Origin: Paraburkholderia fungorum
Lineage (GTDB): Bacteria; Pseudomonadota; Gammaproteobacteria; Burkholderiales; Burkholderiaceae
Direction: 5' to 3'
Assembly: GCF_900099835.1 (NCBI RefSeq)
Contig: NZ_FNKP01000003.1
Location: 186,001 to 250,000 of the forward strand
Length of the DNA stretch: 64,000 nucleotides
The position numbers and the translations under genes are program-made. The notes beneath the pieces were generated by a model. It saw only the letters and a list, made by a program, of their open reading frames with translations, was not told the origin of the DNA and made no database searches. Positions 7,546 to 59,069 of the stretch are shown here, piece after piece; position 1 is the stretch's first letter; every line of letters begins with the position of its first letter.

Positions 7546-7597
7546 GTGCGGCTCACCGCACCGCATTTACCGACCCTCGAACCAAGGAGCGAACGCA

Positions 7598-37598: not shown

Positions 37599-37777
37599 GT
37601 ATCGATCCCTTCGGGTTGATTCGACGCCCACGCGGCTCGTAAGCGGCGCGGGCGTCGATGAATATGACTGGTTGCAGATCGGGCTCCCAGCGACTCACGG
37701 GAGGTTCGGCAAATGCTAAGGGGGAAAAAAATATCGGTGATGCGGGTGTGGCATTGCGCTATGCGGCTGCCGCATAA

Positions 37778-39735: not shown

Positions 39736-40335
39736 ATGACAACTGAATCGAACTCACGTACGGCCGAACACGCGATCGACCGGCAATTTCTCGACCGCTG
39801 GTCGCCGCGCGCTTTCAGTGCCGACACGATCCCCGAAGCTACGCTGTTGACGCTCCTCGAAGCGGCTCGCTGGGCGCCGTCCTCGTATAACTCGCAGCCG
39901 TGGCGTTTCGCTTATGCACGGCGCGGCACGCCGCATTGGGAGCAATTCGTCGGCTTTCTCAATGAGTTCAATCAGAGCTGGGCAAAGCACGCGGCCGCTA
40001 TCGTGATCGTGCTGTCGAAGAACACCTTCACGCCTCCCGGCGCGGCAGCGGAAGTACCTGCACCGACGCATTCGTTCGATACCGGCGCCGCGTGGGCCTA
40101 CCTCGCGTTGCAAGCCACGCTGTCCGGCTGGCATGCACATGGTCTCGCCGGCATCGAGCGCGACAAGATTCGCCAGCAACTCGCGGTTCCCGACGGTTAT
40201 TCGATTGAAGCGGGTATTGCGATAGGTCGCGCGGGTGACAAGGCCACGTTGTCCGAAACGCTGCAGGCCCGGGAAGTGCAAAGCCAGCGCAAGCCGCTAG
40301 CCGAGATCGCGTTCGAAGGACGACTCGCGCTCTAA
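39736..40335 (+). CDS. Nitroreductase family protein
   Basis: A 199-residue FMN-dependent nitroreductase-fold oxidoreductase. Seen are the N-terminal FLDRWSPRAFS with FMN-contacting Arg and Ser, LLEAARWAPSSYNSQPWRF, and DTGAAWAYLALQATLSGWHAHGLAG. GGAG lies six bases before the ATG. It stands alone and is divergent from the cold-shock gene; the substrate is unknown. Confidence 0.9.
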   Translation: MTTESNSRTAEHAIDRQFLDRWSPRAFSADTIPEATLLTLLEAARWAPSSYNSQPWRFAYARRGTPHWEQFVGFLNEFNQSWAKHAAAIVIVLSKNTFTPPGAAAEVPAPTHSFDTGAAWAYLALQATLSGWHAHGLAGIERDKIRQQLAVPDGYSIEAGIAIGRAGDKATLSETLQAREVQSQRKPLAEIAFEGRLAL

Positions 40336-40454: not shown

Positions 40455-40991
40455 TTAAACCGCCACGCTCACGTGCCGCAATTCGCCGACAATCATCTGC
40501 GGATTCTTCAGCAGATTGAAAATCGGGCACACCGCTTCCACCGCTTCATGCAACGCGCGAATCGCTTCGGGTGACTCAGGCGACACGATATCCAGCGTAT
40601 AGCGAATATTATGCGGATAGATCGGCACATTTTCGAAGCCCGGTTGTTGTGCAAGCGGATGCTGCTCACCGGTTACTTCCACCTCGATCGAATCGATCCT
40701 GAGCTGCCGCTCGGCGGCCTGTATCAGCGTGATGTGTGTAATGCAGCTTCCCAGCACGCCGAGTTGCAATTCCGGCGACGCGGGCCCGAGGTTGTATCCC
40801 GCGAAGTCTGCCGGGCTATCGCTAATCACCTGGAAATCGCGGATACGGATTTCCCGCACGCCACTGCGGCCTAATGCACGCACGTTGGCTTTCAGTCGGT
40901 TCGCTGCAATATTGGGATCGTTGCGCGCCGCTTCACGTTTGGCGAGCCACGCCGCGCGCTTCTGGACAAGGTACTCGTTGAGCGTCGTCAT
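40455..40991 (-). CDS. OsmC family protein
   Basis: A 178-residue OsmC/Ohr-fold protein. The catalytic Cys is in LGSCITHITLIQA, and the partner strand segment VTGEQHPLAQ is visible. OsmC proteins reduce organic hydroperoxides through a pair of cysteines. Only one Cys of the pair is obvious at the usual spacing (a second lies in AVCPIFNLLK), so peroxidase function is plausible but unproven. It precedes the sulfur locus on the opposite strand. Confidence 0.85.
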   Translation of the reverse strand: MTTLNEYLVQKRAAWLAKREAARNDPNIAANRLKANVRALGRSGVREIRIRDFQVISDSPADFAGYNLGPASPELQLGVLGSCITHITLIQAAERQLRIDSIEVEVTGEQHPLAQQPGFENVPIYPHNIRYTLDIVSPESPEAIRALHEAVEAVCPIFNLLKNPQMIVGELRHVSVAV

Positions 40992-41295
40992 GAGTCGATA
41001 GTTCTATTTCGAAGGTTCGATAAAAAAAACGCGATGAATAGCAAAGGCACACGCGCCCGCATGCTTCGGCTTTGCATCGAAGAATAACTACCCGCTCCAT
41101 TCGAACGAACCAAGCGATTCTGCTTTGCTTAAGTCAATCGATCATTTCTCCACGCTCTCGCGCAACGAATCAGATAAGAATAGAAATTATTGTTCGTTGT
41201 CCATGGCGTCTTCTCTCCGATAGATTTCTCATGCCCGGCGCATTGACGCGAGACTCGCTGCTGCGCGGTAAATTTTGTTGGTCAAAGCAACGGAC

Positions 41296-42117
41296 ATGTC
41301 TGCAAAAACCGAATTCCTGACGCCACACGCCTTTAACGAATCGACGCAACGCCGTCTTCCCTCTATTCGATGGCGTCGCGCGGTATCACCGATTGCATTA
41401 TTGTTCGCCTGGCAGATTGCCTGCTGGAACGGCTGGGTATCGACGCGCTTCATTCCCGCGCCGGTCACGATCGCCCAGACGTTCTGGGCGATGACCGTCT
41501 CCGGCGAACTCGCGCGCAATCTTCTCGTTTCACTCGGCCGATCCGCGAGCGGGCTAGCGATTGGCGCCACGATTGGCGTAGTGGCTGCGCTCGTTGCGGG
41601 GCTTTCTTCCAAAGGCGAAGACGCGATCGACCCGCCGATGCAAATGCTGCGCACGATGCCCCACCTTGCGTTGGTGCCGCTGTTCATTCTGTGGTTCGGC
41701 ATCGGTGAAGCGCCGAAGATTGCGCTGGTTGCATTGGGCTCTGCTTTCCCGATTTATCTGAACCTGTATGCGGGCATTCGCCATGTCGATCCCAAAGTTA
41801 TCGAGGCAATGACCACGATCGGGCTGACTCGCGCAGAAATGATCTGGCACATCATCTTGCCCGGGGCGCTGCCTTCGGCACTGGTGGGCTTGCGATACGC
41901 AATCGGTGTAGCGTGGCTGAGCCTGGTGGTTGGCGAGCAGGTGAATGCATCGAGCGGAGTCGGCTATCTCGTCATGAACGCACGCGAGTTCGTGCGAACC
42001 GACATCATTTTCGTCGGCCTGATCGTCTACTCGCTGCTCGGTCTTGCCGCCGATGCATTGGTGAGAAAGCTTGAAAGCGCCGCGCTTGTGTGGCGTCCAA
42101 CGGCGCAAAAAAAATGA
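41296..42117 (+). CDS. Aliphatic sulfonate/organosulfur ABC transporter permease (SsuC-like)
   Basis: A 273-residue inner-membrane permease of the SsuC/TauC class with six predicted segments. It carries the cytoplasmic EAA-type loop AMTTIGLTRAEMIWHIILPGALPSALVGLR that docks the ATPase, and the TMPHLALVPLFILWFGIGE segment typical of the family. Its stop overlaps the ATPase start by four bases (ATGA). No gene in the 304-base gap before it. First gene of the organosulfur locus. Confidence 0.9.
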   Translation: MSAKTEFLTPHAFNESTQRRLPSIRWRRAVSPIALLFAWQIACWNGWVSTRFIPAPVTIAQTFWAMTVSGELARNLLVSLGRSASGLAIGATIGVVAALVAGLSSKGEDAIDPPMQMLRTMPHLALVPLFILWFGIGEAPKIALVALGSAFPIYLNLYAGIRHVDPKVIEAMTTIGLTRAEMIWHIILPGALPSALVGLRYAIGVAWLSLVVGEQVNASSGVGYLVMNAREFVRTDIIFVGLIVYSLLGLAADALVRKLESAALVWRPTAQKK

Positions 42118-42914
42118 GCCACGCCGTGACAGTGACCCCGCCTTTACCCGCGTCAGAACCCGTGGTTCGTCTGCGCGGCCTTACTCGCGCATTCGATCAA
42201 CAGGTGGTGCTCGACTCACTGAACGTTGACATCGAACGCGGCAGTTTTACGGCTCTGCTCGGCCATAGCGGATCGGGCAAATCCACCTTGTTGCGCACTC
42301 TCGCGGGACTCGATACCGCGTCACACGGAGCCGTCACGGTCCCCACTCAACGGGCAGTAGTGTTTCAGGAGCCCCGGCTCGTGCTGTGGAAGCGGCTCGT
42401 CAATAACATCACACTCGGTTTGCGTAGCGCTAATGCACGCGATAAAGCAGTGGCGGCGCTAGCCGACGTGGGTCTTTCGCACCGGCTCGATGCGTGGCCG
42501 CTCACGCTCTCCGGTGGCGAGGCGCAACGGGCGGCGCTGGCTCGCGCGCTGGTACAGGACCCGCAACTGCTGCTGCTCGACGAACCATTCGCCGCGCTGG
42601 ACGCGTTGACGCGGCTAAAAATGCAGCAACTGGTTCTCGACCTGTGGCAACGCCGCCGCCCCGCTGTCCTCCTTGTCACTCACGATGTGGACGAAGCGCT
42701 GCTACTCGCCGATCGTGTCCTCGTGCTATCGAAGGGTCGTATTTCGCTCGATATTCCGCTCGATCTGGATCATCCTCGCGAGCCGGGTCATCCGAAGCTG
42801 AAGGAGTTGCGCCATTTGCTGCTCACGGAGCTCGGCGTGCCTTTGCCAGCGCCGAAGCACACGCCAGCTCCGGCTGCGTCCGAAATCGAAATCAGCACCG
42901 TCTCCCACTTCTGA
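42114..42914 (+). CDS. Aliphatic sulfonate/organosulfur ABC transporter ATPase (SsuB-like)
   Basis: A 266-residue ATPase of the SsuB/TauB class. It has Walker A GHSGSGKSTLLRTLAG, Q-loop VVFQEPRLVLWK, signature LSGGEAQRAALARAL, Walker B LLLLDEPFAALD and switch His in THDVDEAL. Start and stop overlap neighbours (ATGA with the permease, TGATG with an in-frame downstream start), so the block is translationally coupled. Confidence 0.92.
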   Translation: MSHAVTVTPPLPASEPVVRLRGLTRAFDQQVVLDSLNVDIERGSFTALLGHSGSGKSTLLRTLAGLDTASHGAVTVPTQRAVVFQEPRLVLWKRLVNNITLGLRSANARDKAVAALADVGLSHRLDAWPLTLSGGEAQRAALARALVQDPQLLLLDEPFAALDALTRLKMQQLVLDLWQRRRPAVLLVTHDVDEALLLADRVLVLSKGRISLDIPLDLDHPREPGHPKLKELRHLLLTELGVPLPAPKHTPAPAASEIEISTVSHF

Positions 42915-42970
42915 TGAACGAAGTGTCCCGCTTATCCCCCGGTCCTCAATGGACTGCCCCGGAGCCGTCG

Positions 42971-44212
42971 ATGACCGCCCAAGTTTCAAACCTCGCGTTC
43001 GCGGCGACCGCCCGAACGACACCACGGGTCTATGCACCAGCCCACATCATTGCGTCAGACGATGAAGCGTTGCGGATCGCGCGTGATCTCGCGCAGAACT
43101 TTGCCACCGACGCCGCGCGCCGCGACAGCGAACGCATTCTTCCCTTTGACGAATTGAATGCCTGTTCGAGCGCGGGACTGTGGGCGATGACCGTGCCGAA
43201 AGAATACGGCGGCGCACAGGTGTCGTACGCGACGGTCGGCCGGGTATTCGCGTTGCTCGCCGCGGCCGACCCCTCCATTTCGCAAATTCAGCAAAACCAC
43301 AACAGCGCGGTTTTCTGGATCTGGAAGACCGGCGACGAACGGCAACGAGCCTTCTTTCTCGGCGAAATTCTGCGCGGCGCCCGCTTTGGCAATGCGAATG
43401 TCGACGTGGGCGGACGACAGCCCAGCGGCTCGGCGATGACTATCACACCCGACGGCGAAGGCTTCCGCCTGTCCGGCACCAAGCTGTATTCGACCGGCGC
43501 ACTATTCGCCGACTACGTGTCCACCATCGGCCAGGATCAGGCGGGACGCCGCACGGTCGCCATCGTGCCCGCAGGCCATCCAGGCATGAAGATCGTCGAC
43601 GATTGGCAAAGCTTCGGCCAGAAAACCACCGCCAGCGGCACCGTGATTTTCGATGACGTGTGGGTGCCCGCTTTGAACGTGCTGCCGATTCACGAAAGCT
43701 ACGCACACTGGCCACAAAACGCGGTCACGCAGATCAGCCACGTCGGCATCGACGCGGGCATTGCACGGGCTGCGCTCGACGCGACGATCGCGTTCATCCG
43801 CGAGCGCGACGCGGCTTCGTCTGCGAGCACGATTCCGGCAATCGGAGCCGACCCGTACGTGATCCATCAACTCGGCGAGTTGACCACGCGTCTACACGCG
43901 TCCGAAGCGATGATGGAACGTGCAGGCCGCGAAATCGACCATTGTCTCGCCGACCCCGGCCCGGACACGATTGCCGCGGCATCGATCGCGGTGGCCGAAG
44001 CAAAAGCGTTGACCACCGAAATCGCCATCGACGCAAGCAGCAAACTGTTCGAACTGGCGGGTACCCGCTCAACGCATCCCTCATTCAATCTCGACCGGCA
44101 TTGGCGCAATGCACGGGTTCATACCGTGCACGATCCGGTCCGCTGGAAATACGCGGCAGTCGGCAACTTCTATCTGAACGGCGTGCGCCCTTCGCCTACC
44201 GGACAAACTTAA
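42971..44212 (+). CDS. SfnB/DszC-like flavin-dependent oxidoreductase (acyl-CoA dehydrogenase fold)
   Basis: A 413-residue member of the SfnB/DszC branch of acyl-CoA dehydrogenases, which use reduced flavin to oxygenate sulfur compounds. Seen are LWAMTVPKEYGGAQVSYATV, the IQQNHNSAVFW block, GTKLYSTGALFADY and the end RWKYAAVGNFYLNG. ATG at 42971 has GGAG six bases before it; an ATG at 42914 (TGATG with the ATPase gene) is an alternative without a ribosome site. It lies between ABC transporter subunit genes, as sfnB-like genes often do. Confidence 0.87.
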   Translation: MTAQVSNLAFAATARTTPRVYAPAHIIASDDEALRIARDLAQNFATDAARRDSERILPFDELNACSSAGLWAMTVPKEYGGAQVSYATVGRVFALLAAADPSISQIQQNHNSAVFWIWKTGDERQRAFFLGEILRGARFGNANVDVGGRQPSGSAMTITPDGEGFRLSGTKLYSTGALFADYVSTIGQDQAGRRTVAIVPAGHPGMKIVDDWQSFGQKTTASGTVIFDDVWVPALNVLPIHESYAHWPQNAVTQISHVGIDAGIARAALDATIAFIRERDAASSASTIPAIGADPYVIHQLGELTTRLHASEAMMERAGREIDHCLADPGPDTIAAASIAVAEAKALTTEIAIDASSKLFELAGTRSTHPSFNLDRHWRNARVHTVHDPVRWKYAAVGNFYLNGVRPSPTGQT

Positions 44213-44275
44213 GAGCGGCGCTGCATTACACGCTCGCCGCTTACGTATTCACCTCATTCTTCAGGAGATCCTCGC

Positions 44276-45232
44276 ATGCCGGGACGTCGTCAGTTTCTCG
44301 CCGCAGGCAGCGCGCTCGCCGCCGCGACTTTTATTGCGCCGCTATCTAAAGCTCTTGCCGCGACGCCCGATACGATCAGCTTCGGCTTTCAGAAAACCGG
44401 CATTCCGCTCGTGGCGAGACAACTCAAGGTATTCGAAAAGCGCTTCGAGCCGCGTGGGATAAAAGTAAATTGGGTGGAGTTTCCATCCGGGCTCACGCTG
44501 TTGCAGGCACTCGACATCGGTCAGATCTCGTTCGGCAATTCCGGCAACGTGGGCTGCATTTTTCAACAGGCGGCAGGCGGACATATCGATTACATCGCCG
44601 CGCAGCCTTCGGGGCCCAAGAGCGAAGGCATTCTGGTGAAGGCCACTTCCAGCATCCGCACGCTCGCCGATTTGCGCGGCAAGAAAGTCGGCTATGCAAA
44701 AGGCTCGAGTTCGCATGATCTGATTGCGGCGGCTCTGGAAAAAGCCGGCGTGAAGCTCGCCGATATTGACTCCATTTCGCTAGGCGCGGCCGATGCTGCC
44801 TTTGCATACGACAGCGGTGATACCGACGCATGGGTTATCTGGGACCCATACTTTACGATTGCGCAAAAGCGCACGCCTTCGCGAGTTCTCGCCTACACCG
44901 GAGACATCAAGCCGAGTTCGGGATTTCTGCTGGCGAATAGCGGCTTTGCTGCCGCGTATCCTGAACTGGTCCGTGAATATATCGACGGCTCGAAAGAAGC
45001 CGCAGCGTGGGCGAAGTCGCATCCCGCCGAAGTGACCAGCGCGCTTTCCGCCGCTACCGGCATACCCGCCGACGTAATGGCTCTCGTCACCCAGAACGCC
45101 AGCTTCGATGTAACCGCGCTAAGCACGCCGCTACTCGATGCACAGCAGAACACCGCCGACCGCCTGTATGCACTCGGCCTGATTCCGAAGAAGGTGAATG
45201 TGCGCGACATCGTCTGGAAATCGAACACCTGA
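44276..45232 (+). CDS. Aliphatic sulfonate/organosulfur ABC binding protein (SsuA-like)
   Basis: A 318-residue periplasmic binding protein of the SsuA/TauA (NMT1-like) class. The N-terminus PGRRQFLAAGSALAAATFI carries a twin-arginine-type signal, with cleavage near ALA at about 29. Body features are WVEFPSGLTLLQALDIGQISFG, the LRGKKVGYAKGSS segment and DAWVIWDPYFTIAQ. It partners the permease and ATPase upstream. An SfnB-like gene lies between them. Confidence 0.9.
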   Translation: MPGRRQFLAAGSALAAATFIAPLSKALAATPDTISFGFQKTGIPLVARQLKVFEKRFEPRGIKVNWVEFPSGLTLLQALDIGQISFGNSGNVGCIFQQAAGGHIDYIAAQPSGPKSEGILVKATSSIRTLADLRGKKVGYAKGSSSHDLIAAALEKAGVKLADIDSISLGAADAAFAYDSGDTDAWVIWDPYFTIAQKRTPSRVLAYTGDIKPSSGFLLANSGFAAAYPELVREYIDGSKEAAAWAKSHPAEVTSALSAATGIPADVMALVTQNASFDVTALSTPLLDAQQNTADRLYALGLIPKKVNVRDIVWKSNT

Positions 45233-45407
45233 AGTGCTTCGATTGACGCTAAATCGTTGCTGCAACAGCAGCGGCCATACAGTGTTGGAAGGCATCAAAA
45301 GAAAAGCAGAATTGATTGGTTTGCATTCCAGAACTCACATGATCTACTGCGTCGATGCGAGTCGAGTCGGCTTGCTGAGACAACTCTAACCGGCACGGAC
45401 TTTCACT

Positions 45408-46598
45408 GTGACTCACTCTCTTCTGGACGCTCAACCACAGGCCGCATCTTCATTCGTGCCGGTTCGTTCGCCTGCCACGTTCGCCGACAGCCCCGTGTCG
45501 CGCGCATTCGAACAACCGCTTCTGCTCGGCCTGTTCCTGCCGATTCAGGCGGGCGGCTGGAGCGCCTCGACGCTGCCGCGTTCCACCGACTGGAGCTTCG
45601 ACTACAACCTCGCGCTCGTGCAAAAAGCGGAAGCACTCGGTTTCGATCTGGTATTCGCGCTGTCGCAGTGGCTGCCAAAAGGCGGCTATGGCGGCGTATT
45701 CAACGGCGAGGCGCTCGACTCATTCATGTCGCTCGCTGCGATGACGGCGCGCACCGAGCGCATCATTCTGGTCGCCACCAGTCATGTGCTTTATGGACCG
45801 TGGCATCCGCTGCACTTCGCCAAATTCACCGCGACGCTCGATCATATTTCGAAAGGACGCTGGGGTATCAACGTCGTGACCGGTCATCGTGCAGTCGAGC
45901 ATGAAATGTTCGGCTGGCATCGCATCGAACACGATCGACGCTACGAACTGGCGGCCGAGTTTCTCGACGCCGTTCAGCAACTCTGGTCGCAGCCGGATAA
46001 CTTCAGCTTCGCACCTCCGCTCTCAAGCTGGAAACTCGACAAGGCTTTCGTTACGCCGAAGCCGAATTACGGCCGTCCGCTGCTCGTGAATGCAACCGGT
46101 TCGGACGCCGGTATCGACTTCGCCGCACGTTATTCGGACATTGTGTTCATCACAAGTCCCGCTGGTTCCGAAATCGAAGCTGCGCTGGCCGCGTTGCCCG
46201 CCCACACGGCACGCGTGAAAGCCGCTGCCGCGAAGCATGGGCGCCAGATCCGCACGCTCATCAATCCGATGGTGGTGTGCCGCGAGACCGAAGCAGAAGC
46301 ACACGCCTATCGCGATGCAATCGTTGCGCATGGTGACGAAGGTAGCTTCCACCGCTTCGAGAGCGATGCGCATGCGTGGCGCGGCAACGCTCCGCAACGC
46401 AACCAGGCCGCCGCGCGTGCGGTGGGCGGCAACATCTCGATAGTTGGCTCGCCACAGCAGGTTGCCGATTACATCGTGCGTCTGCATCAGGCGGGCATCG
46501 ACGGTGTGCAATTGAGCTTCTTCGATTTTCAACCGGACCTCGAATTCTTCGGCGAACGCGTTTTGCCGCTGTTACGCGAAGCCGGACTGCGCTTCTGA
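45408..46598 (+). CDS. FMNH2-dependent monooxygenase (SfnG/RutA-like luciferase family)
   Basis: A 396-residue luciferase-like oxygenase. The body has the SfnG/RutA look: GLFLPIQAGGWSASTLPRSTDWSFDYN, KGRWGINVVTGH, HDRRYELAAEFLDAV and the end DGVQLSFFDFQPDLEFFGERVLPLL. The first about 35 residues are weakly conserved. The start GTG at 45408 has no clear ribosome site and is uncertain. SfnG oxidises dimethyl sulfone to methanesulfinate and RutA opens uracil; the neighbours favour sulfur. Reduced FMN must come from elsewhere. Confidence 0.85.
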   Translation: MTHSLLDAQPQAASSFVPVRSPATFADSPVSRAFEQPLLLGLFLPIQAGGWSASTLPRSTDWSFDYNLALVQKAEALGFDLVFALSQWLPKGGYGGVFNGEALDSFMSLAAMTARTERIILVATSHVLYGPWHPLHFAKFTATLDHISKGRWGINVVTGHRAVEHEMFGWHRIEHDRRYELAAEFLDAVQQLWSQPDNFSFAPPLSSWKLDKAFVTPKPNYGRPLLVNATGSDAGIDFAARYSDIVFITSPAGSEIEAALAALPAHTARVKAAAAKHGRQIRTLINPMVVCRETEAEAHAYRDAIVAHGDEGSFHRFESDAHAWRGNAPQRNQAAARAVGGNISIVGSPQQVADYIVRLHQAGIDGVQLSFFDFQPDLEFFGERVLPLLREAGLRF

Positions 46599-46679
46599 GC
46601 GTTTCGCCAATGCGCGAAATGGCGGCGTCGCTAGCCGCCGCCGTATGGGTCCGACACCCTCCAACTTCAAGGTGATTCA

Positions 46680-47744
46680 ATGAGCCGACTCTGGTACACG
46701 CGCTGCCCTGCTCCCACTCCGTTCGGCATTGCCGCGCAGAAGGGCTGGCTGCAACAGGAATTCGCCGCCGACGGCATCGACGTCAAAGCGCTGCAGGATG
46801 CCGACGACGTGAAAATTCGCCGCTCGCATTTCACGCACACGCAGCCGTGGTCGTTTCGACAGGGCGGCAATATCCCCGCGCTGTGGGCGCGCGCCCAAGG
46901 CAGCGAAACGCGTCTGATCGGCCTGAGCTGGGTCGATGAGTTCCAGGCATTGATCACCCTTGACCGTCAGCTGGATGCGTCTCCAGAGGCGCTACAGGGG
47001 CGGCGCTTCGGCTTCCCGCTGAACACCCGGGCAAGCGTGGTCGATTTTCATCGCGCGACCGCCTTGCGGGGCTTCTCGTCACTGCTCGGCGCGATTGGCG
47101 TTCAACTCGAAGACATCGATCTCGTCGATTTGCCGCATACACCGCGCGGCCTGGAAGATGCCAAACCTTCCGTGGATGCATCACTCGCGGACTGGCTCGA
47201 CGCGCAACGCTCGCACGAATTCGCACGCGAAGCAGAAGCTTTGCTGCGGGGCGAAGCCGACGTTGTGTTCGTCAAAGGCGCGACAGGTCTCGACATCGCG
47301 AATCTGCTCAATGCGAAGATTCTGGTTGAAATCGGCGCGCAGCCCAACCGCGTGCTGCATGCAAATAACGGCACGCCGCGTCCGCTCACGGTCGATGCGC
47401 AATTGCTGCGCGAGCGCCCCGACCTGGTTGAACGGGTCGTGGCCCGCACGCTGGACGCCGCTGATTGGGCGCAAGCTCATCCGGGCGATGTCGCGCACTA
47501 CGTTGCCCGCGAAACACGCAGCGCAGAGCACTGGGTAGGCCACGCATATCCCGGCGGATTGCATCGTCAATTGACACTCGGGCTCGATCCGCGAGCACTC
47601 GCCGCGCTCGCTGACTTCAAGCATTTTCTGTTCACATGGGGCTTCATTCCCTCCGATTTCGATGTTGACGCGTGGGTCGATCCCGCGCCCTTGCGTGCCG
47701 CGCTCGCAAGACGGCAGCAGGCCGCCGCAACCGCCACGCTCTGA
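46680..47744 (+). CDS. DszB-like sulfinate desulfinase (periplasmic-binding-protein fold, cytoplasmic)
   Basis: A 354-residue protein that would normally be labelled a sulfonate binding protein, but it has no signal peptide (MSRLWYTRCPAP). It carries the DszB desulfinase triad: Cys9 in YTRCPAP (DszB Cys27, YSNCPVP), His50 in HFTHTQP (DszB His60, HFTYDQP) and Arg60 in FRQGG (DszB Arg70, TRFGG). The His-to-Arg spacing of 10 is identical. I infer a cytoplasmic desulfinase releasing sulfite from an organic sulfinate. It follows an SfnG/RutA-like oxygenase, the enzyme type that makes sulfinates. Confidence 0.75.
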   Translation: MSRLWYTRCPAPTPFGIAAQKGWLQQEFAADGIDVKALQDADDVKIRRSHFTHTQPWSFRQGGNIPALWARAQGSETRLIGLSWVDEFQALITLDRQLDASPEALQGRRFGFPLNTRASVVDFHRATALRGFSSLLGAIGVQLEDIDLVDLPHTPRGLEDAKPSVDASLADWLDAQRSHEFAREAEALLRGEADVVFVKGATGLDIANLLNAKILVEIGAQPNRVLHANNGTPRPLTVDAQLLRERPDLVERVVARTLDAADWAQAHPGDVAHYVARETRSAEHWVGHAYPGGLHRQLTLGLDPRALAALADFKHFLFTWGFIPSDFDVDAWVDPAPLRAALARRQQAAATATL

Positions 47745-47784
47745 ACCGGCTGAAATCTCCCCTTTCTTTACACACAATCCTACG

Positions 47785-49401
47785 ATGGCTTATGTCACAA
47801 CGCAGGCGGCGCTGCGCCGCCGCGCGCGCGTCTTTCATCGCGCGCTTGTCTTGTCGCTCTCGCTGGTCGCCGCACTCGGCGCATCGCATGCGCAGGCGCA
47901 AACGCGCGGCGGAACGCTCAATTTCATCGTCACGCCGGAACCGACCGCGCTGGTCGATCTCGCGACTACCGCGACCAACGTGCTGAAGGTCAGTCCGAAA
48001 GTGGTCGAAGGACTACTCGAATACGACTTCAAGTTTCAGCCGAAGCCTTCGCTCGCCACCTCGTTCGAAGTCAGCGACGACAGCCGAAAATACGTCTTTC
48101 ATCTGCGCCACGGCGTGAAGTGGCAGGACGGTCAGCCGTTCACTTCCGCCGACGTCGCTTACTCGATCGAGACGCTCAGGCAGGTTCATCCGCGCGCCAA
48201 AACGACCTTTGCCAACGTCACCGAGGTCGCGACCCCGGACCCGTACACCGTCGTTATCACGCTGTCGAAGCCCGCGCCGTATCTGATCAAGGCGTTCTCG
48301 TCGTCGGAAACGCCTATTCTGCCGAAGCATATCTACGAAGGCACTGACCCGCTCACCAATCCCGCCAACAATGCGCCGATCGGCACCGGTCCGTTTCGCT
48401 TCGTCAAATGGGTACGCGGCAGCTACATCGAATATGTGCGCAACGACGACTACTGGGACAAAGGCAAGCCGCTACTCGACCGCATCGTCGTAAAGGTGAT
48501 CACCGATCCGGCCGCGCGGACCGTTGCATTCGAAGACGGCTCCGCCGATCTGAGCGGCGACACCCCAGTACCGCTCTCCGACCTCGCTCGCCTGAAAGGC
48601 AATCCGAAGCTCGGACTCGACACACGCGGTTACGAATTTCAGGCCGGCGTATCGCGTATTGAATTCAATCTCGACAACCCGGTTTTAAAGAATCTGAAGG
48701 TGCGTCAGGCGATTGCATCGGCGCTAGACCGTGAGGTCATTCGCAAGGTGATCTTCTACGGTTACGCGACGCCGCTTGCCAGCCCGATCATTCCGTCAAG
48801 CCCTTACTACGATCCCGCGCCAACGCCGTATCCCTTCAACGTGGAGCGCGCCAACGCGCTGCTCGACGAAGCGGGATATCCGCGTAAGAGCGACGGCACG
48901 CGCTTTGCGCTGACGCTCGACCCGTTGCCGATTGGTGATCTGCCGGCGCGCACTGCTGCTTATGTGAAGTCGGCACTCGCGCGGCTCGGCATTACCGTGA
49001 CTGTTCGGAGCCAGGATCTGCCCGCTTATCTGAAGCGGATCTACACCGACCGCGATTTCGATTTCTCGGTCAACGGCATGAGCAATCTGTTCGACCCGGT
49101 GGTCGGCGTAGCGCGGCTTTATACGACCAATAATTTCCGGCGCGGCGTGCCTTTCACGAACGGCTCGCATTACAGCAATCCGCAGATCGATCAACTGTTC
49201 GCGCAAGTCGCCGAAGAAACCGACGAGGCGAAACGCAAGCAACTCTTCTCGGAGATTCAACGGATTATCGAGCGCGACCTGCCCGACATCAATCTCGTTT
49301 CACCGCAATACCTCACCGTTTATTCGCGCGCGGTACACGACCATACGACGGGACCCGACGGCGTATCGGGCAGTTTCGCCGATACGTGGTTGCAACGCTA
49401 A
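47785..49401 (+). CDS. Family-5 (oligopeptide/glutathione-type) ABC substrate-binding protein
   Basis: A 538-residue periplasmic binding protein of the DppA/GsiB/OppA family. The signal is Sec-type (RALVLSLSLVAALGASHAQAQ, cleavage about residue 39). Body features are the GVKWQDGQPFTSADVAYSIE signature, DPYTVVITLSKPAPYLIKAFSSSETPILPKH and GTGPFRFVKWVRGSYIE. It is clearly a paralogue of the gene at 50496. No matching permease or ATPase gene lies in the window. A bulky S-containing or peptide-like ligand is plausible. Confidence 0.9.
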   Translation: MAYVTTQAALRRRARVFHRALVLSLSLVAALGASHAQAQTRGGTLNFIVTPEPTALVDLATTATNVLKVSPKVVEGLLEYDFKFQPKPSLATSFEVSDDSRKYVFHLRHGVKWQDGQPFTSADVAYSIETLRQVHPRAKTTFANVTEVATPDPYTVVITLSKPAPYLIKAFSSSETPILPKHIYEGTDPLTNPANNAPIGTGPFRFVKWVRGSYIEYVRNDDYWDKGKPLLDRIVVKVITDPAARTVAFEDGSADLSGDTPVPLSDLARLKGNPKLGLDTRGYEFQAGVSRIEFNLDNPVLKNLKVRQAIASALDREVIRKVIFYGYATPLASPIIPSSPYYDPAPTPYPFNVERANALLDEAGYPRKSDGTRFALTLDPLPIGDLPARTAAYVKSALARLGITVTVRSQDLPAYLKRIYTDRDFDFSVNGMSNLFDPVVGVARLYTTNNFRRGVPFTNGSHYSNPQIDQLFAQVAEETDEAKRKQLFSEIQRIIERDLPDINLVSPQYLTVYSRAVHDHTTGPDGVSGSFADTWLQR

Positions 49402-49443
49402 AGCCTTTCTTTTCGACTCGTAATCTCACGGAATCAGACTGAC

Positions 49444-50493
49444 ATGGAATACAGACAACTCGGCCGCAGCGGCATCAAGGTCTCGACATTGACGCTCGGC
49501 ACAATGATGTTCGGCGGCCCCACCGACGAAGCGACCGCAGCCCGCATCATCGATCAGGCGCAGGAACAGGGCGTGAATTCGATCGATACCGCCGACGTCT
49601 ACGGCAAGGGCGAGTCGGAACGCGTGGTTGGCCGCGCAATCGCGGCACAGCGCGAACGCTGGGTACTGGCGACAAAATTTGCGAACCCGCTGCAAAGCGG
49701 CGACGTGAACGCGCAAGGTGCGTCGCGCAAATACATCGAGCGCGCCGTCGATGCCAGCCTGAAACGGCTCGGCACCGACTATATCGACCTGCTCTACATC
49801 CATCGCGAAGATCACGAAACGCCGGTTGAAGAAACGGTGCGCGCACTCGACGATCTGATCCGCGCAGGCAAGCTGCGTTACTACGGGCTGTCGAATCATC
49901 GCGCGTGGAAGATTGCGGAGTTCAGCCACACGGCGCAGGCGCTTGGACTCGCTGCGCCTATCGCAAGCCAGCCGCTTTACAACATCGCCAATCGTCAGGC
50001 CGAGGCTGAGCAATTGACTGCCGCGCACCGCTATGGGCTCGGCGTGATCTCGTATAGCCCGCTCGCGCGCGGCGTACTGACCGGCAAATACGAACCCGGC
50101 GCGACACCCGGTGCCGATACGCGCGCGGGCCGTAGCGACCGCCGCTTGCAGCAGACCGAATGGCGTCCCGAGTCGATCGAACTCGCGCGGCGCGTGCGGG
50201 AACATGCCGAGGCGCGCGGTTTGTCGGCGGGCCAATTCGCATTGGCGTGGGTGCTCAACAGCCGCTATATCAGTTCGACGATTGCCGGTCCGCGCACCGA
50301 GGCGCAATGGCAGGACTATCTGCCCGCGCTGCGCTATCAATTGAATGCCGACGACGAAGCATTCGTCGATTCGCTGGTGACGAGCGGCCATCCGTCAACG
50401 CCTGGCTTCAACGATCCGGGGCATCCGTTCTTCGGTCGGATTGCGCGTCACGGGGCAACTGAACACACAACGGCAAACGCGCTAAAAGGCTAA
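49444..50493 (+). CDS. Aldo/keto reductase
   Basis: A 349-residue NADPH-dependent oxidoreductase. The catalytic set is present: Asp and Tyr in IDTADVYGKGESE, Lys in LATKFANP, His in LLYIHREDH. The YRQLGRSGIKVSTLTLGTMMFGG opening and GVISYSPLARGVLTGKY segment are typical of the YghZ/YajO-like subgroup. It lies between two paralogous binding-protein genes, and probably reduces an aldehyde or ketone released from the substrate. Confidence 0.9.
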   Translation: MEYRQLGRSGIKVSTLTLGTMMFGGPTDEATAARIIDQAQEQGVNSIDTADVYGKGESERVVGRAIAAQRERWVLATKFANPLQSGDVNAQGASRKYIERAVDASLKRLGTDYIDLLYIHREDHETPVEETVRALDDLIRAGKLRYYGLSNHRAWKIAEFSHTAQALGLAAPIASQPLYNIANRQAEAEQLTAAHRYGLGVISYSPLARGVLTGKYEPGATPGADTRAGRSDRRLQQTEWRPESIELARRVREHAEARGLSAGQFALAWVLNSRYISSTIAGPRTEAQWQDYLPALRYQLNADDEAFVDSLVTSGHPSTPGFNDPGHPFFGRIARHGATEHTTANALKG

Positions 50494-50495
50494 CC

Positions 50496-52118
50496 ATGAC
50501 TGTAGATCGTCGGCGTTTCATGCAGACATCGCTGGCCGCTCTCTCCGCCGGTGCACTCGGCACATGGGCTGACCTCCCGACTGCGGCAGCCGCCAGCACG
50601 CAAGCGACCACGCCCGCGAAGGGCGGCACGCTCACCTACGCGGTCCAGCAGGAGCCGCCGTCGCTGGTTTCGCTGCTCGACACCAATACGGTGATCCGTA
50701 ACATCAGCGCAAAAATTACTGAAGGGCTGTTGCGCTACGACGCGCAGTTCAAACCGCAACCGCTCCTAGCCATTGCCTGGAGCACCAGTGACGACGGTCT
50801 GCGATACACGTTCAAACTGCGGCCCAACGTGAAGTGGCACGATGGCGAGAGCTTCACGTCCGCCGACGTCAGCTACTCGATCCTCACGCAAAAACGCCTC
50901 GGCCCGCGCGGACGCATCACGCTCGCCAATGTCGAGCGGGTCGAAACGCCCGATCCGTTGACGGCCATCGTGGTGCTCGGCAAGCCGACGCCCTATCTGA
51001 TCAAGGCTCTTTCGTCCGCGGAATTGCCCATCGTGCCGCAACACCGCTACGGCGACAGCGATCCTCTGACAAGCCCGAATCTCACCGCGCCAATCGGCAC
51101 CGGCCCGTTCGTCTTCGACCAATGGGTGCGCGGCAGTCACGTCAGCCTTCGCAGGAATCCGAACTACTGGCGGCCGGGCGCACCGAATCTGGACCATGTG
51201 ATCTACCGTATCGTGCCCGATCAGGCGTCCATTTCCGCCGCGCTCGAAACCGGTGAGGTCGATGCCGCAACCAACGTCGGCCTCGCCGATCTGAGCCGTC
51301 TTGCAAAGTTGCCGAATCTGAAAATCGACGACAGCTACGATGCGTATCTGAACAACGCGGCTTTCCTCGAATTCAACCTGGACAATCCAGTGCTTGCAAA
51401 GCCCGAGGTGCGCAAGGCTATTGCACACGCGATAGATCGCAACTTCATCAAGGACAACGTCTTCTACCAACGTTCGAGCGTGGTCGATTCGCCAGTGCCC
51501 GCCGTGTTGTCGAGCTATTACGACGACAGCACCTTTCGCTATCCGTTCGACGTGAACGAAGCGAATCGTTTGCTTGATGCGGCAGGTTATCCGAAACAGG
51601 CCGACGGCCAGCGTTTCGCGCTGAAGATCAACTACATCAGCGGATCGGATTTCCGGCGCGCGGCGGATTATCTGCGCGCTGCGCTCGCGCGCATCGATAT
51701 CAAGGCGAGCATTCTCGACGGCGATCTGCCGACCTATTTGCGTCGCGCCTATACGGCTCGCGAGTTCGATCTGAATCTGAACGGCCTCGGCCGTCTTTAC
51801 GATCCGACGGTTGGCGTGCAGCGCATTTACTGGTCGGACGGTGTCAGGCATCCGCTCATCTGGATCAACGCTTCGCACTATCAGAACCAGCAAGTCGACG
51901 ACCTGTTTCGAGCGGCCGCCGTCGAAACCGACGAGGGCCGCCGCGCGTCCGCGTTCCGGCAGATTCAGCAGATCGTCGGCCGTGACCTGCCGGTGCTGCC
52001 GCTGGTGACGGTGCCGTCGGCGTTGCAGGTGTATCACTCGCGGGTTCACAACCTGAACAACAGCATCGATCTGACGGCGGGCGATTTCTCCGACGCGTGG
52101 ATCGAACCGAAAGCCTGA
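50496..52118 (+). CDS. Family-5 ABC substrate-binding protein, Tat-exported paralogue
   Basis: A 540-residue paralogue of the protein at 47785, matching along its length (for instance VKWHDGESFTSADVSYSI, DPLTAIVVLGKPTPYLIKALSSAELPIVPQH, IGTGPFVFDQWVRGSHVSL). Its export signal differs: DRRRFMQTSLAALSAGALG is twin-arginine type, while its paralogue has a Sec signal. The start lies 2 bases after the aldo/keto reductase stop. Confidence 0.9.
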   Translation: MTVDRRRFMQTSLAALSAGALGTWADLPTAAAASTQATTPAKGGTLTYAVQQEPPSLVSLLDTNTVIRNISAKITEGLLRYDAQFKPQPLLAIAWSTSDDGLRYTFKLRPNVKWHDGESFTSADVSYSILTQKRLGPRGRITLANVERVETPDPLTAIVVLGKPTPYLIKALSSAELPIVPQHRYGDSDPLTSPNLTAPIGTGPFVFDQWVRGSHVSLRRNPNYWRPGAPNLDHVIYRIVPDQASISAALETGEVDAATNVGLADLSRLAKLPNLKIDDSYDAYLNNAAFLEFNLDNPVLAKPEVRKAIAHAIDRNFIKDNVFYQRSSVVDSPVPAVLSSYYDDSTFRYPFDVNEANRLLDAAGYPKQADGQRFALKINYISGSDFRRAADYLRAALARIDIKASILDGDLPTYLRRAYTAREFDLNLNGLGRLYDPTVGVQRIYWSDGVRHPLIWINASHYQNQQVDDLFRAAAVETDEGRRASAFRQIQQIVGRDLPVLPLVTVPSALQVYHSRVHNLNNSIDLTAGDFSDAWIEPKA

Positions 52119-52142
52119 CCATCGACCTGAGATCTAGCTACC

Positions 52143-53678
52143 ATGAGCGCACCTGAACTGGATGACCCGAAGTCCGCCGTACTCGATGCACTGACCTTTG
52201 CCAGTGCGCGGGAGCAGGCCGCAGCATTGGCCGAAGGCCGCGTGTCAGCGGTCGAATTACTGGAACATACGATTGCCCGCATTACACGCTTCGACGGCGA
52301 ATTGAACGCCGTGGTCGCGCGTGATTTCGACACCGCGCGAGCTGCCGCCCGTGATGCCGACGCGGCATTGGCGCGTGGCGACCGACGCCCATTACTTGGC
52401 GTGCCGATTACGGTAAAGGAATCATTCGATGTGGCGGGACTCGTGACCAGCGTCGGCAATCCGGCTTTCGCTGACAACGTCGCAGAGCGCGATTCGCTCT
52501 CGGTTGGCGCTCTGCGTGACGCGGGTGCGTTGATCATCGGCAAAACCAATGTGCCGCTCGCGCTTTCCGACCTGCAAAGCTACAACGAAGTCTATGGATT
52601 GACGCGCAATCCCTGGGATCATGAGCGCACACCCGGTGGATCGTCCGGCGGATCGTCGGCGGCGCTCGCGGCGGGTTATGTCGCGCTGGAACTCGGCTCC
52701 GATATCGGCGGTTCGATCCGCATTCCCGCGCATTTCACCGGCGTTTATGGCCATAAACCGAGCTACGGTCTCGTATCCCTGCTCGGCGCAGGTGCACCGC
52801 GCGGTCGCTTTTCCGCGCGCGATCTGAGTGTCGCCGGGCCGCTCGCGCGCAGTGCAGGCGACCTCGAACTCGCACTCGATCTGCTGCTCAACCGCGATCC
52901 GTTGACGAATAGAGCGTGGCATGTAACGTTGCCGCCCGCGCGTCATGCGCACCTCGCCGGATTCCGTGTGCTGATGATCGATACGTGGCCTGGCACCGAA
53001 AGAAGTGTATCGGAGCGCCTCGTGTCCGAACGCGTGGTCGAGCGATTGCGCACACAGGGCGTGCAGGTGAGCCGCCCTGCCGATCTTCCCGGCGGTCTGT
53101 TGCCCGATCTCACCCGCAGTCATGCGCTGTACCGGACCTTGCTGGGTTCGTCGCTGGCCGAGCCGCCCGCATTGAGCGAGGCGGCCCGCGAGCGCCTCGC
53201 CGCACTCGCCCCCGACGACGACAGCGCCGACGCCGCCTGGCTGCGCGCCCCCACGCTCGCCCATCGCGACTGGCTCAGGGCCGATGAACAACGACATGCA
53301 TTGCGTCATCAGTGGGAACGGCTTTTCGAATCGTTCGATGTAGTCGTGACGCCGGTCGCGCCGGTACCTGCCTTCCGCCACAACCAGCAGCAGCCGAAAG
53401 ACGCGCGCACCTATCCTGTAGCGTTCGAAGACGGCGTGCGCGAAGTGCGCTTCCTCGACTTCTTCTACTGGGCGGGGTTGCCTGTGCTGCCCGGATTGCC
53501 GGCCACCAGTTTCCCTCTCGGTCTGGACGATGACGGCTTGCCGGTCAGCGCGCAAGCCGTGGGGCCGTGGCTCGAAGACCGCACGCCGATTGCATTTGCG
53601 GCCCTGCTGGAAGAGGTTTATGGCGGATTTCTCGTGCCGCCGGGTTATGAAGCGGGCAATACACGCGCTACCCGTTAA
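52143..53678 (+). CDS. Amidase (amidase-signature family)
   Basis: A 511-residue Ser/cis-Ser/Lys amidohydrolase. The catalytic set is at the usual spacings: Lys92 (ITVKESFD), cis-Ser167 (PGGSSGG) and nucleophile Ser191 (SDIGGSIR). It hydrolyses an amide bond to acid plus amine. It is the last gene before a strong terminator in the transporter-reductase-transporter block, so it likely releases an amine from an imported amide conjugate. Confidence 0.92.
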   Translation: MSAPELDDPKSAVLDALTFASAREQAAALAEGRVSAVELLEHTIARITRFDGELNAVVARDFDTARAAARDADAALARGDRRPLLGVPITVKESFDVAGLVTSVGNPAFADNVAERDSLSVGALRDAGALIIGKTNVPLALSDLQSYNEVYGLTRNPWDHERTPGGSSGGSSAALAAGYVALELGSDIGGSIRIPAHFTGVYGHKPSYGLVSLLGAGAPRGRFSARDLSVAGPLARSAGDLELALDLLLNRDPLTNRAWHVTLPPARHAHLAGFRVLMIDTWPGTERSVSERLVSERVVERLRTQGVQVSRPADLPGGLLPDLTRSHALYRTLLGSSLAEPPALSEAARERLAALAPDDDSADAAWLRAPTLAHRDWLRADEQRHALRHQWERLFESFDVVVTPVAPVPAFRHNQQQPKDARTYPVAFEDGVREVRFLDFFYWAGLPVLPGLPATSFPLGLDDDGLPVSAQAVGPWLEDRTPIAFAALLEEVYGGFLVPPGYEAGNTRATR

Positions 53679-55477: not shown

Positions 55478-56800
55478 TTACCGGCGAAAGAATCGGTTCT
55501 CCGGCCGCGGTAAGCCAAGGTTCTCGCGCAGCGTCGCCCCTTCATATTCGCGGCGGAACAGGCCGCGTCTCTGCAACTCCGGCACGACCTTATCGACAAA
55601 GTCGTCGAGTCCGGCCGGAAGGTGGGAGAACATGACGTTAAAGCCATCCGAGCCTTCTCCCACGAGCCACTGTTCCATCTGGTCCGCGATCGATGCCGGC
55701 GTGCCGACCATTTCCAGCCCCGAGTAACCGCCAATGCGCTGCGCAAGCTGGCGAATCGTCAGACCGTCTTGCTGCGCCCATTCGAGCACCCGTTGACGCG
55801 CCGTGCGACTCGCGTTGGTTTCGGGAATCTCGGGCAACGGTCCATCCGGATCGAAACGGGAGACGTCGTGACCCAATGCAATCGATAACGACGCAATGCC
55901 GCTTTCATAGTGAACATATGTGTCGAGCCGCGCTCGCGTTTCCTGAGCCTGTTCCAGCGTGTCGCCCACTACGACGAATGCAGCCGGCAGGATCTTCATG
56001 TGATCGCGCTGTCGGCCGAGTTTTTCCATTCGCCCTTTAACATCGGCGTAAAAGCGTTGGCCGTCGGCAAGATTACTTTGGGCGGTGAACACCACTTCCG
56101 CAGTTTCGGCCGCAATCTGCCGCCCTGCTTCCGATGAACCTGCCTGCACGATCACCGGCCAGCCCTGCACGGGCCGCGCGATATTCAACGGTCCACGCAC
56201 CGAGAAGTTCTCGCTTTTATAGTTCAGCACATGCAGTTTCGCGGGATCAAAGTAGTCGCCACTCGCGGTGTCGCGGATAAAAGCGTCGTCGGCCCAGCTA
56301 TCCCACAGTCCGGTGACTACGTCGAAGAACTCGCGCGCGCGTCGATAACGTTCGTCGTGTTCCACATGCTCGTCGAGGCCGAAATTGAGCGCGGCGTCCG
56401 GGTTCGACGTGGTAACCAGATTCCACCCTGCCCGGCCGCCGCTAATGTGATCGAGCGACGCGAAGCGGCGTGCCACGTGATACGGCGCGTCGAACGTGGT
56501 CGATGCGGTCGCGACCAGCCCGAGCCGTTCGGTGACTGCGGCCAGTGCCGGCAGCAAGGTCAGCGGCTCGAACGACGTGACCGTGTGGCTGTGCCTGAGC
56601 GCGTCGAGCGGCATGTTGAGTACCGCGAGATGGTCCGCCATGAAGAACGCGTCGAAGCGGCCACGTTCGAGCGTCTGCGCGAAACGCTTCAGGTGCGTGA
56701 AGTTGAAGTTGGCGTCGGGATAGGCGCCGGGGTAGCGCCATGCGCCGGTGTGAATCGTGGTGGGGCGCATGAAAGCGCCGAGGCGAAGCTGACGGGACAT
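55478..56800 (-). CDS. FMNH2-dependent monooxygenase (NtaA/SnaA/DszA family)
   Basis: A 440-residue luciferase-like oxygenase of the nitrilotriacetate/dibenzothiophene-sulfone monooxygenase subgroup, the same family as the gene at 18948. Seen are FFMADHLAVLN, LGLVATASTTFDAPYHVARRFASLDHISGGRAGWNLVTT, HDERYRRAREFFDVV and PVIVQAGSSEAGRQIAAETAEVVF. ATG at 56800 follows GGAGATCAACCG. It is divergent from the SsuD-like gene across a 357-base promoter region. No partner reductase lies near it. Confidence 0.9.
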   Translation of the reverse strand: MSRQLRLGAFMRPTTIHTGAWRYPGAYPDANFNFTHLKRFAQTLERGRFDAFFMADHLAVLNMPLDALRHSHTVTSFEPLTLLPALAAVTERLGLVATASTTFDAPYHVARRFASLDHISGGRAGWNLVTTSNPDAALNFGLDEHVEHDERYRRAREFFDVVTGLWDSWADDAFIRDTASGDYFDPAKLHVLNYKSENFSVRGPLNIARPVQGWPVIVQAGSSEAGRQIAAETAEVVFTAQSNLADGQRFYADVKGRMEKLGRQRDHMKILPAAFVVVGDTLEQAQETRARLDTYVHYESGIASLSIALGHDVSRFDPDGPLPEIPETNASRTARQRVLEWAQQDGLTIRQLAQRIGGYSGLEMVGTPASIADQMEQWLVGEGSDGFNVMFSHLPAGLDDFVDKVVPELQRRGLFRREYEGATLRENLGLPRPENRFFRR

Positions 56801-57157
56801 CGGTTGATCTCCATCGCGGATACGGTCGTGCAAGTATATTTGCGCTTCGCTTCGTCTGCTTGCGGTCGCTGACTCTTCGACAATGCATAAACAGCGAACG
56901 CGACGACAGCACCCAACGACGTCATATGTGTGGGTTGCGTGACGCGCAGGCACCAAGCTCAGGCGCGTGGACGTGTAACGCGGCTACTAGCTTGCACCTC
57001 CATTAACATGCACATTCGATATCTTTAGCTGAATATACTATTTAGCCCTTGCATAACGCGATGTTAGCCTGAATGCGACAGGTTGATGGGCCACTCTCCG
57101 GCTTATCTGCTAAAGCATTCTTCTATCCACCCCAACGGATTTCCGCAAGGAGCTAAC

Positions 57158-58253: not shown

Positions 58254-59069
58254 ATGAGCACCCCGACCGCCGACCACACTTCCCTCACGTTTCGCGAAAC
58301 GCCCGTACGCAAGTTCTGGTTCGATGACGACAACGTGCCGCAACGTTCGCTCGAACAGGAACGTCTTCACCGTCGGCAGCGACTTGCAGGCGCATTTCGC
58401 CTGTTTGCGCACAACGGTTTTGCACAAGGTCTCGCTGGACACATTACCGCGCGCGATCCCGAATGGACCGATCATTTCTGGGTCAATCCGCTGGGGCGGC
58501 ATTTTGGCCGCATACGGGTTTCGGATCTTCTGCTCGTCAATCAGCACGGTGAAATCGTGATCGGCGATGGTCCGCTGAATCAGGCGGCGTTTGCGATTCA
58601 TGCGGCGATTCACGAAGCGCATCCCGGGATCGTGGCGGCCGCGCATACGCATTCGCTTTACGGCAAGGCGTGGTCCACGCTCGGCCGCAAGCTTGATCCG
58701 CTGACTCAGGATTCGTGCGTGTTCTACGAAGACCATGAACTGTTCGACGATTTTCGCGGCGTGGTGCTCGACACCAGCGAGGGTGCGCGGATTGCCGACA
58801 CGCTCGGCTCACGCAAGGCGGTGATCCTGAAGAACCACGGCATCCTGACGGCGGGTCCGTCGGTGGAAGCGGCGGCGTGGTGGTACATCGCGTTAGAGAA
58901 CGCCTGCCACACGCAACTGCTTGCCGAAGCCGCAGGCACGCCACAGCCAATACCGCACGAGATGGCCGATCTGACCCATCAGCAGATAGGCCGCGCCAAC
59001 GGCGCACGGCATTCATTCGACAGCCTGTATGAAGGCTTGCTGGAAACCGAAAGGGATTTTCTCGACTGA
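58254..59069 (+). CDS. Class II aldolase/adducin family protein
   Basis: A 271-residue zinc-dependent aldolase/epimerase-fold protein. Metal-ligand motif AAHTHSLYGKAWSTLGR and the later LKNHGILTAGPSVEAAAWW are present, along with GLAGHITARDP near residue 65. The substrate may be a phosphorylated sugar, a hydroxy acid or an oxidised carbon fragment. The stop overlaps the dioxygenase start (TGATG), so translation is coupled. Confidence 0.87.
   Translation: MSTPTADHTSLTFRETPVRKFWFDDDNVPQRSLEQERLHRRQRLAGAFRLFAHNGFAQGLAGHITARDPEWTDHFWVNPLGRHFGRIRVSDLLLVNQHGEIVIGDGPLNQAAFAIHAAIHEAHPGIVAAAHTHSLYGKAWSTLGRKLDPLTQDSCVFYEDHELFDDFRGVVLDTSEGARIADTLGSRKAVILKNHGILTAGPSVEAAAWWYIALENACHTQLLAEAAGTPQPIPHEMADLTHQQIGRANGARHSFDSLYEGLLETERDFLD

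Follow-up and report, generated by a model that had tools for sequence, protein, structure and literature searches.

A predicted cytoplasmic DszB-like sulfinate desulfinase in a sulfur-related gene run of Paraburkholderia fungorum

The gene at 46680-47744 of a 64,000-nucleotide stretch of Paraburkholderia fungorum DNA (the window) encodes a 354-amino-acid protein that, judging from its sequence, is probably a cytoplasmic, cofactor-free cysteine enzyme with the chemistry of DszB, which would desulfinate a polar, non-thiophenic sulfinate as the end of a 4S-like sulfur-scavenging route. We put the probability of this reading at about 65%, and likewise give about two chances in three to the narrower statement that the protein works like DszB. 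We infer catalysis, the order of the reactions and the substrate from homology, residue conservation, the absence of a signal peptide, gene linkage and co-occurrence.

The gene and its surroundings

The open reading frame is real: it starts with ATG, has an AAGGTG stretch immediately 5' of that codon, and is present in a single copy in the genome (search at E = 1e-3). An in-frame stop lies 15 codons 5' of the ATG, and the key cysteine, the sole cysteine of the protein, is already residue 9, so that no signal peptide fits; inspection of the N-terminus found no export signal of the kind expected for an SsuA-type periplasmic protein. The first-pass annotation had described a sulfonate-binding-protein fold without a signal peptide, and both parts of that description stand: the protein passes the NMT1/THI5-like model of Pfam (PF09084, a broad fold model; 28 bits against a cut-off of 20.5), and its N-terminus excludes export, which had been named as an observation that would speak against an enzyme. 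The protein misses the SsuA-family cut-off (NCBIfam TIGR01728; 52 against 163.5 bits). The gene lies within a run of ten genes on the same (+) strand, from 41275 to 53678, separated by gaps of -28 to 175 bases:

41275-42117, +, SsuC-like ABC permease (under the equivalog cut-off)
42090-42914, +, SsuB-like ABC ATP-binding protein (under the equivalog cut-off)
42914-44212, +, SfnB-family oxidoreductase (sulfur acquisition, DszC/MsuC-like), predicted S-oxygenase (TIGR04022, 560.5 against 430.9 bits)
44276-45232, +, SsuA-family sulfonate-binding protein (225.8 against 163.5 bits) with an export-signal-like N-terminus, judged by eye
45408-46598, +, LLM flavin monooxygenase, SfnG-like, predicted sulfinate producer (TIGR04021 not passed, 195.2 against 382.95 bits)
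46680-47744, +, predicted DszB-like sulfinate desulfinase, cytoplasmic, 354 amino acids, with C9, H50, R60, G62-G63 and T7 (the equivalent of DszB S25)
47785-49401, +, ABC substrate-binding protein, peptide-type (family 5), start picked from several candidates
49444-50493, +, aldo/keto reductase, co-inherited with the desulfinase candidate in the genus
50496-52118, +, second ABC substrate-binding protein, peptide-type
52143-53678, +, amidase

The SsuA-family protein is a true binding protein, in contrast to the 354-amino-acid protein. The SfnB start was set at 42914 (searches ran from 42908), and the nearest solved structures are a probable monooxygenase, DszC and MsuC. For the LLM monooxygenase they are SfnG (8t0u, E = 4.6e-53) and then RutA, with DszA further away (E = 8.5e-21), in keeping with the earlier description of an SfnG/RutA-like oxygenase directly before the gene; sulfur-related genes do surround it, as had also been claimed. 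These two proteins are the DszA- and DszC-superfamily enzymes of the run, the LLM monooxygenase being nearest to SfnG and the other to SfnB. SfnR uses sigma-54 promoters; a pattern for promoters of this kind, allowing at most one mismatch, had no match in the window, where 1.93 would be expected by chance.

Elsewhere in the window there is a second sulfur-type block, with an NtaA/DmoA-family monooxygenase that passes its cut-off (55481-56956, -), an SsuD-like monooxygenase below its cut-off (57083-58231, +), a class II aldolase family protein (58254-59066, +) and a multi-rhodanese-domain protein (59293-61269, +). At 34825-36390 and 36321-37631 (both -), an open reading frame with a C-terminal part that scores 369 bits, above the cut-off of 190 for cysteate racemase CuyB, lies beside a dicarboxylate/glutamate-type symporter; the two are possibly a cysteate-use pair. 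Upstream are a nitroreductase-like gene (39736-40335, +) and an OsmC-like gene (40455-40991, -), the latter found again near the desulfinase candidate in several Paraburkholderia loci.

Relation to DszB, active site and substrate pocket

Among solved chains, a single-sequence phmmer search with the protein matched DszB alone at a significant level (2DE2, E = 4.2e-15; 2DE3 and 2DE4, E = 1.4e-13; third match, E = 0.036). A profile of 76 family proteins matched DszB structures at E = 3.2e-29 and 1.9e-27, the next five matches (THI13 twice, a nitrate-binding protein, SsuA and PlsX) being insignificant, at E = 0.35 to 0.94. Profile-profile alignment of the family with the DszB clade, represented by 30 of 75 DszB-clade proteins, gave E = 8.4e-46 over 332 columns with 27% identity; against four SsuA-type proteins the family gave E = 6.4e-15 and DszB E = 1.2e-21, values that are not on equal terms with the family-DszB value because the SsuA set is shallow. 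In the opposite direction, DszB as a query against the P. fungorum genome found the 46680-47744 gene as its best match (E = 2.4e-14, 30% identity), with two weak matches behind it that include the SsuA gene of the run. A database search with DszB returned 78 proteins, 75 with 41-99% identity and another three with 27-28%, and the tree placed these three inside the new family. With a full-length alignment to DszB in hand, we rejected the notion of a chance motif.

This tree was built quickly by maximum likelihood from 58 of 354 rows, left after thinning at 62% identity, with SH-aLRT as its sole support measure; it has the DszB clade (15 rows, 99) as sister to the new family (24 rows plus three, 99) and 16 binding proteins outside both (100); the outgroup, selected for resemblance to the SsuA of the window, has several long branches, which drew a tool warning. 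In this quick tree the 354-amino-acid protein does not fall within the DszB clade, the two being sister clades with SH-aLRT 99 each.

The catalytic set of the first-pass annotation is borne out by three alignments (phmmer against 2DE2, the profile search and profile-profile), in each of which C9, H50 and R60 fall on C27, H60 and R70 of DszB with equal His-Arg spacing; the RxGG wording is kept as R60-Q-G-G. In the excerpted account of DszB (PMC6100217), C27 is required, H60Q cuts activity about 17-fold and mutation of R70 leaves the protein insoluble; the substrate appears to be hydrogen-bonded by H60 and R70, S25 hydrogen-bonds H60, and R70 is part of an RXGG motif. When 76 family rows and 30 DszB-clade rows were aligned together, by sequence only, the counterparts of DszB C27, R70, G72 and G73 (C9, R60, G62 and G63) are kept in 76 of 76 family rows, that of H60 (H50) in 75 of 76, and S25 is replaced by threonine (T7) in 75 of 76.

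The pocket around this core is different. Opposite W155 of DszB there is a gap in 76 of 76 family rows of the sequence alignment; F61 is kept as F51, and the F203 position is Leu in 45 of 76 rows and Phe in 20 of 76. The aromatic trio F61, W155 and F203, which are named active-site residues of DszB in the part of PMC6100217 cited here, is not conserved as a set in these 76 rows. Three further positions are changed in every one of the 76 family rows: Y63, at which DszB mutants have changed activity according to the excerpt of PMC11550978, is H53, N26 is R8 and W225 is K199. Because the DszB pocket is not kept (the gap at W155; invariant R8, H53 and K199), biphenyl sulfinate is unlikely to be the substrate, which is probably a smaller or more polar sulfinate. 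We take DszB residues 225-228 to line the substrate pocket, and regard R8, H53, K199 and R234 as candidates for contacting a polar or anionic part of the substrate. All that the first-pass annotation stated about the sequence was confirmed. The earlier label of a DszB-type desulfinase is supported, with the amendment that the protein belongs to a sister clade with an altered substrate pocket, not to the DszB clade.

Since pocket residues differ, the reaction of the family could also differ from that of DszB. THI5-type pyrimidine synthase is another enzyme of the same fold, and carries a multi-Cys motif. A kept core with a pocket remade from polar invariant residues would suit an enzyme of this fold that acts on a sulfonate, a thiosulfonate or another C-S substrate rather than a sulfinate, and the weak THI13 match in the profile search (E = 0.35) points the same way. 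We consider this quite unlikely: the set of Cys, His, hydroxyl residue and Arg-x-Gly-Gly is that of DszB, the neighbouring monooxygenase is of the type that produces sulfinate (SfnG; excerpt of PMC8234197), and a single cysteine excludes the multi-Cys THI5 motif. A THI5-type enzyme was rejected outright for having one cysteine in the whole protein.

A further reading makes the protein a genuine DszB orthologue of the thiophene type, with benzothiophene or dibenzothiophene sulfinates as its substrates and a use of thiophenes by its host bacteria that has gone unnoticed; we consider this very improbable. Such an orthologue would accord with the citation of the Gram-negative Sinorhizobium sp. KT55 as a benzothiophene desulfuriser (PMC3868597, in extract), with family members on Sinorhizobium plasmids, and with the proposal, in extracts of PMC9861168 and PMC11852219, that SfnB/SfnG act on dibenzothiophene in Gordonia; it fits poorly with a clade separate from DszB, with W155 in a gap and W225 replaced by invariant Lys, and with an LLM monooxygenase closer to SfnG than to DszA by the E-values given above.

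Conservation, spread and gene linkage

The family is large. At E = 1e-5, 730 database proteins matched among 8000 candidates scored, and the best 120 of the 730 were listed; among these, many of the proteins with names go under 'ABC transporter substrate-binding protein', a label that on the present gene is likely a misannotation. The nearest named relatives are from Paraburkholderia. Others among the matches listed are a 'putative desulfurizing enzyme' of P. xenovorans and a Burkholderia 'desulfurase', so annotators had already noticed the resemblance. Such names, and the size of the family, amend the earlier account of the gene. We recognised no description of a DszB-sister family in the open-licence literature on DszB, desulfinases and SfnB/SfnG. 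A pattern scan of species genomes gave 218 confirmed stretches, the best 80 of which are all from Pseudomonadota by their titles; a plasmid search found 91 records with family members, one Streptomyces among these; and of 398 genomes sampled evenly across the phylum, 7 gave a match at E = 1e-30.

In the first 121 rows, position 9 is occupied in 118, always by Cys. A wider alignment took in 306 of the 333 collected rows, dropping P0104 and rows shorter than 330 or longer than 719 amino acids; some organisms appear twice, and the rows are not independent. Its 239 family rows comprise 221 with C9 and H50, one with C9 and Asn50, 14 with Ser9 and Ile50 and three with Ser9 and His50, and all 239 have R60, Ser9 rows included. 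H50 therefore accompanies C9 in 221 of 222 rows and is missing in 14 of 17 rows without C9, the latter reflecting few independent events. The 67 DszB-clade rows have Cys and His in 65 cases; of the other two, one, a deposited sequence, shows Gly in place of the Cys, and one is without that end. A single cysteine, at position 9, is found in 99 of 115 family members of 330-410 amino acids. The 16 sulfonate-binding-type rows have neither the His (0/16) nor the Arg (0/16), with Cys in 3 of 16 in a poorly aligned column. A plain sulfonate-binding protein was rejected on the lack of a signal peptide and the difference at His and Arg.

The tree includes three Ser9 rows, a pair that clusters (99) and a third placed elsewhere, so Cys9 was lost on few occasions; inspected by eye, the Ser9 proteins likewise have no signal peptide when read from their likely starts. 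Because R60 and the fold persist in the Ser9 lineage, some family members may be binders and nothing more. Ser9 paralogs occur, all on the - strand, at 7196-8527 of locus L059, 7168 of L046, 7226 of L068, 3999 of L058 and 11111 of L049, in most cases next to SsuA/SsuC-type transporter genes and not far from intact paralogs; they are possibly former enzymes turned binders or regulators.

The same lineage, which retains Arg-x-Gly-Gly and adjoins transporter genes, bears on whether the P. fungorum protein is itself a cytoplasmic, non-catalytic binder or sensor of sulfonate or sulfinate, acting for example on the transporter, with Cys9-His50-Arg60 as its binding site. By fold it belongs with binding proteins (Pfam NMT1, and the profile-profile match to four SsuA-type proteins), and most named relatives, among the matches listed, carry the substrate-binding name. 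A binder is nevertheless unlikely, given a near-invariant single Cys that is paired with His in C9 rows, given that every comparison made puts the protein nearer to DszB than to binding proteins, and given that a true SsuA with a signal-like N-terminus is already present at the locus.

Gene linkage is consistent with the preferred desulfinase reading. The loci compared (L002-L090, n = 89, some ending at contig ends) have a member open reading frame in 88 cases, L033 being without one, and form 27 clusters at 80% identity. Within 10 kb of the family gene, 21 of 27 clusters have an LLM gene, 16 of 27 an SfnB/acyl-CoA-dehydrogenase-like gene, 23 of 27 either and 14 of 27 both; six have no LLM gene, and four have neither. 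In 20 evenly spaced 20-kb control stretches of the P. fungorum genome (contigs C1 and C2), an LLM gene was found in none and an SfnB-like gene in one. The neighbours are of several types: the LLM protein is nearest to SsuD at L059 (322 bits), SfnG-like and accompanied by an SfnB-like gene at L071, and NtaA/DmoA-type at L073, where a different family gives the acyl-CoA-dehydrogenase-like neighbour its best score. As neighbour types differ between loci, different family members may serve different pathways. We note that at L059 (8735-16924) a family member occurs with an SsuD-like monooxygenase and TonB and ExbB/TolQ-type genes, and at L041 (9923-15555) with a TonB-dependent-receptor gene, a hint that these members use different substrates with outer-membrane uptake.

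Within the genus, we surveyed 97 genomes, counting orthologs of the desulfinase candidate above 400 bits and of the LLM gene above 600 bits, thresholds that were set after viewing the lists. The candidate has an ortholog in 22 of 97 genomes, with a damaged copy in one of them (G405); three genomes that have 38-47% identical paralogs alone are left out of the 22. The LLM ortholog is found in 22 of the 22 genomes with the gene (damaged in G405) versus 4 of the 75 without it (Fisher p = 4e-18, kinship ignored), and the two genes lie less than 10 kb apart in 21 of 22 genomes and less than 2 kb apart in 14 of 22, the distance being 1.03 Mb in G424. The aldo/keto reductase is found in 18 of 22 genomes with the gene versus 4 of 75 without. 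In an uncultured Paraburkholderia symbiont (L035, 9746-10669), the DszB-like gene and the LLM gene, upstream at near 9 kb, are both fragmented; the two are decaying together, in a setting where relatives have intact copies.

Proposed pathway and comparison with known systems

We propose that an organosulfur compound would be imported by the SsuABC-like transporter and/or the peptide-type binding proteins, that the SfnB-family enzyme would oxygenate the sulfur of a sulfide toward the sulfone, and that the SfnG-like monooxygenase would then cleave a C-S bond to give a sulfinate and a carbonyl compound, the latter perhaps being reduced by the aldo/keto reductase. SfnG is described as converting dimethyl sulfone to methanesulfinate (excerpt of PMC8234197). 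Desulfination by the 354-amino-acid protein would be the final step, cleaving the C-S bond of the organic sulfinate and releasing sulfite. Cys9 may act as proton donor (or nucleophile), stabilised by His50, which would be held via the Thr7 hydroxyl, and Arg60 with Gly62-Gly63 may help to hold the sulfinate. If the enzyme follows the Cys-proton substitution computed for DszB (PMC6100217, as excerpted), the sulfinate should be of aryl, hetero-aryl or vinyl type, and a dimethyl-sulfone-like alkyl substrate would seem to fit poorly; attack of Cys on sulfur, an older proposal in the same source, would make alkyl sulfinates possible. To judge from the invariant polar residues, the sulfinate may carry an anionic or hydrogen-bonding group. 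From the peptide-type binding proteins and the amidase one might speculate about a mercapturate or glutathione-conjugate substrate.

More tentatively, and at somewhat less than even odds, DszB would be a thiophene-specialised offshoot of an older Cys-His-Arg desulfinase superfamily, and the new branch the general terminal enzyme of proteobacterial 4S-like routes that draw sulfur from sulfides, sulfones or amide-bearing organosulfur of non-thiophenic kind. The label 'ABC transporter substrate-binding protein' would have concealed this branch, which includes paralogs without Cys and mostly without His. If the desulfinase reading is true, a large sister family, mainly of soil- and plant-associated proteobacteria, adds a direct sulfinate-to-sulfite step to sulfur assimilation, and a systematic misannotation is corrected. 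It would also supply new starting enzymes for the DszB step, called the bottleneck of biodesulfurisation in the extract of PMC6100217, and make directly testable the reaction of the SfnB 'sulfur acquisition' enzymes, which the excerpt of PMC8234197 calls uncharacterised.

The protein is like DszB in its full-length homology, its Cys-His-Arg set, the hydroxyl residue before the Cys, RxGG and the lack of a signal peptide. It is unlike DszB in belonging to a sister clade at about 27-30% identity, in the gap at W155, in having His for Y63, Arg for N26 and Lys for W225, and in having no close dszA or dszC homologues beside its gene. Because it lies outside the DszB clade and lacks the aromatic pocket, we do not file it as DszB. 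DszB is itself described, in the part of PMC6100217 cited, as needing neither pyridoxal phosphate nor another cofactor, unlike other known desulfinases. With SsuA-type sulfonate-binding proteins the protein shares the fold superfamily (Pfam NMT1), but it has no signal peptide and misses the SsuA cut-off, and its His and Arg are absent from all 16 of the binding proteins compared. The operon resembles the sfn/msu pathway of pseudomonads (SfnG, MsuC, MsuD) in combining the SfnB family with an SfnG-like monooxygenase; in that pathway MsuC oxidises methanesulfinate to methanesulfonate, which MsuD cleaves (PMC8234197, in excerpt), whereas here a desulfinase would release sulfite directly. Lastly, it resembles a Gordonia SfnB/SfnG region without dsz genes, for which SfnB and SfnG are proposed as analogues of DszC and DszA (extracts of PMC9861168 and PMC11852219); unlike Gordonia strain 135, which those authors report as being without a DszB analogue, P. 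fungorum has a DszB-like gene next door.
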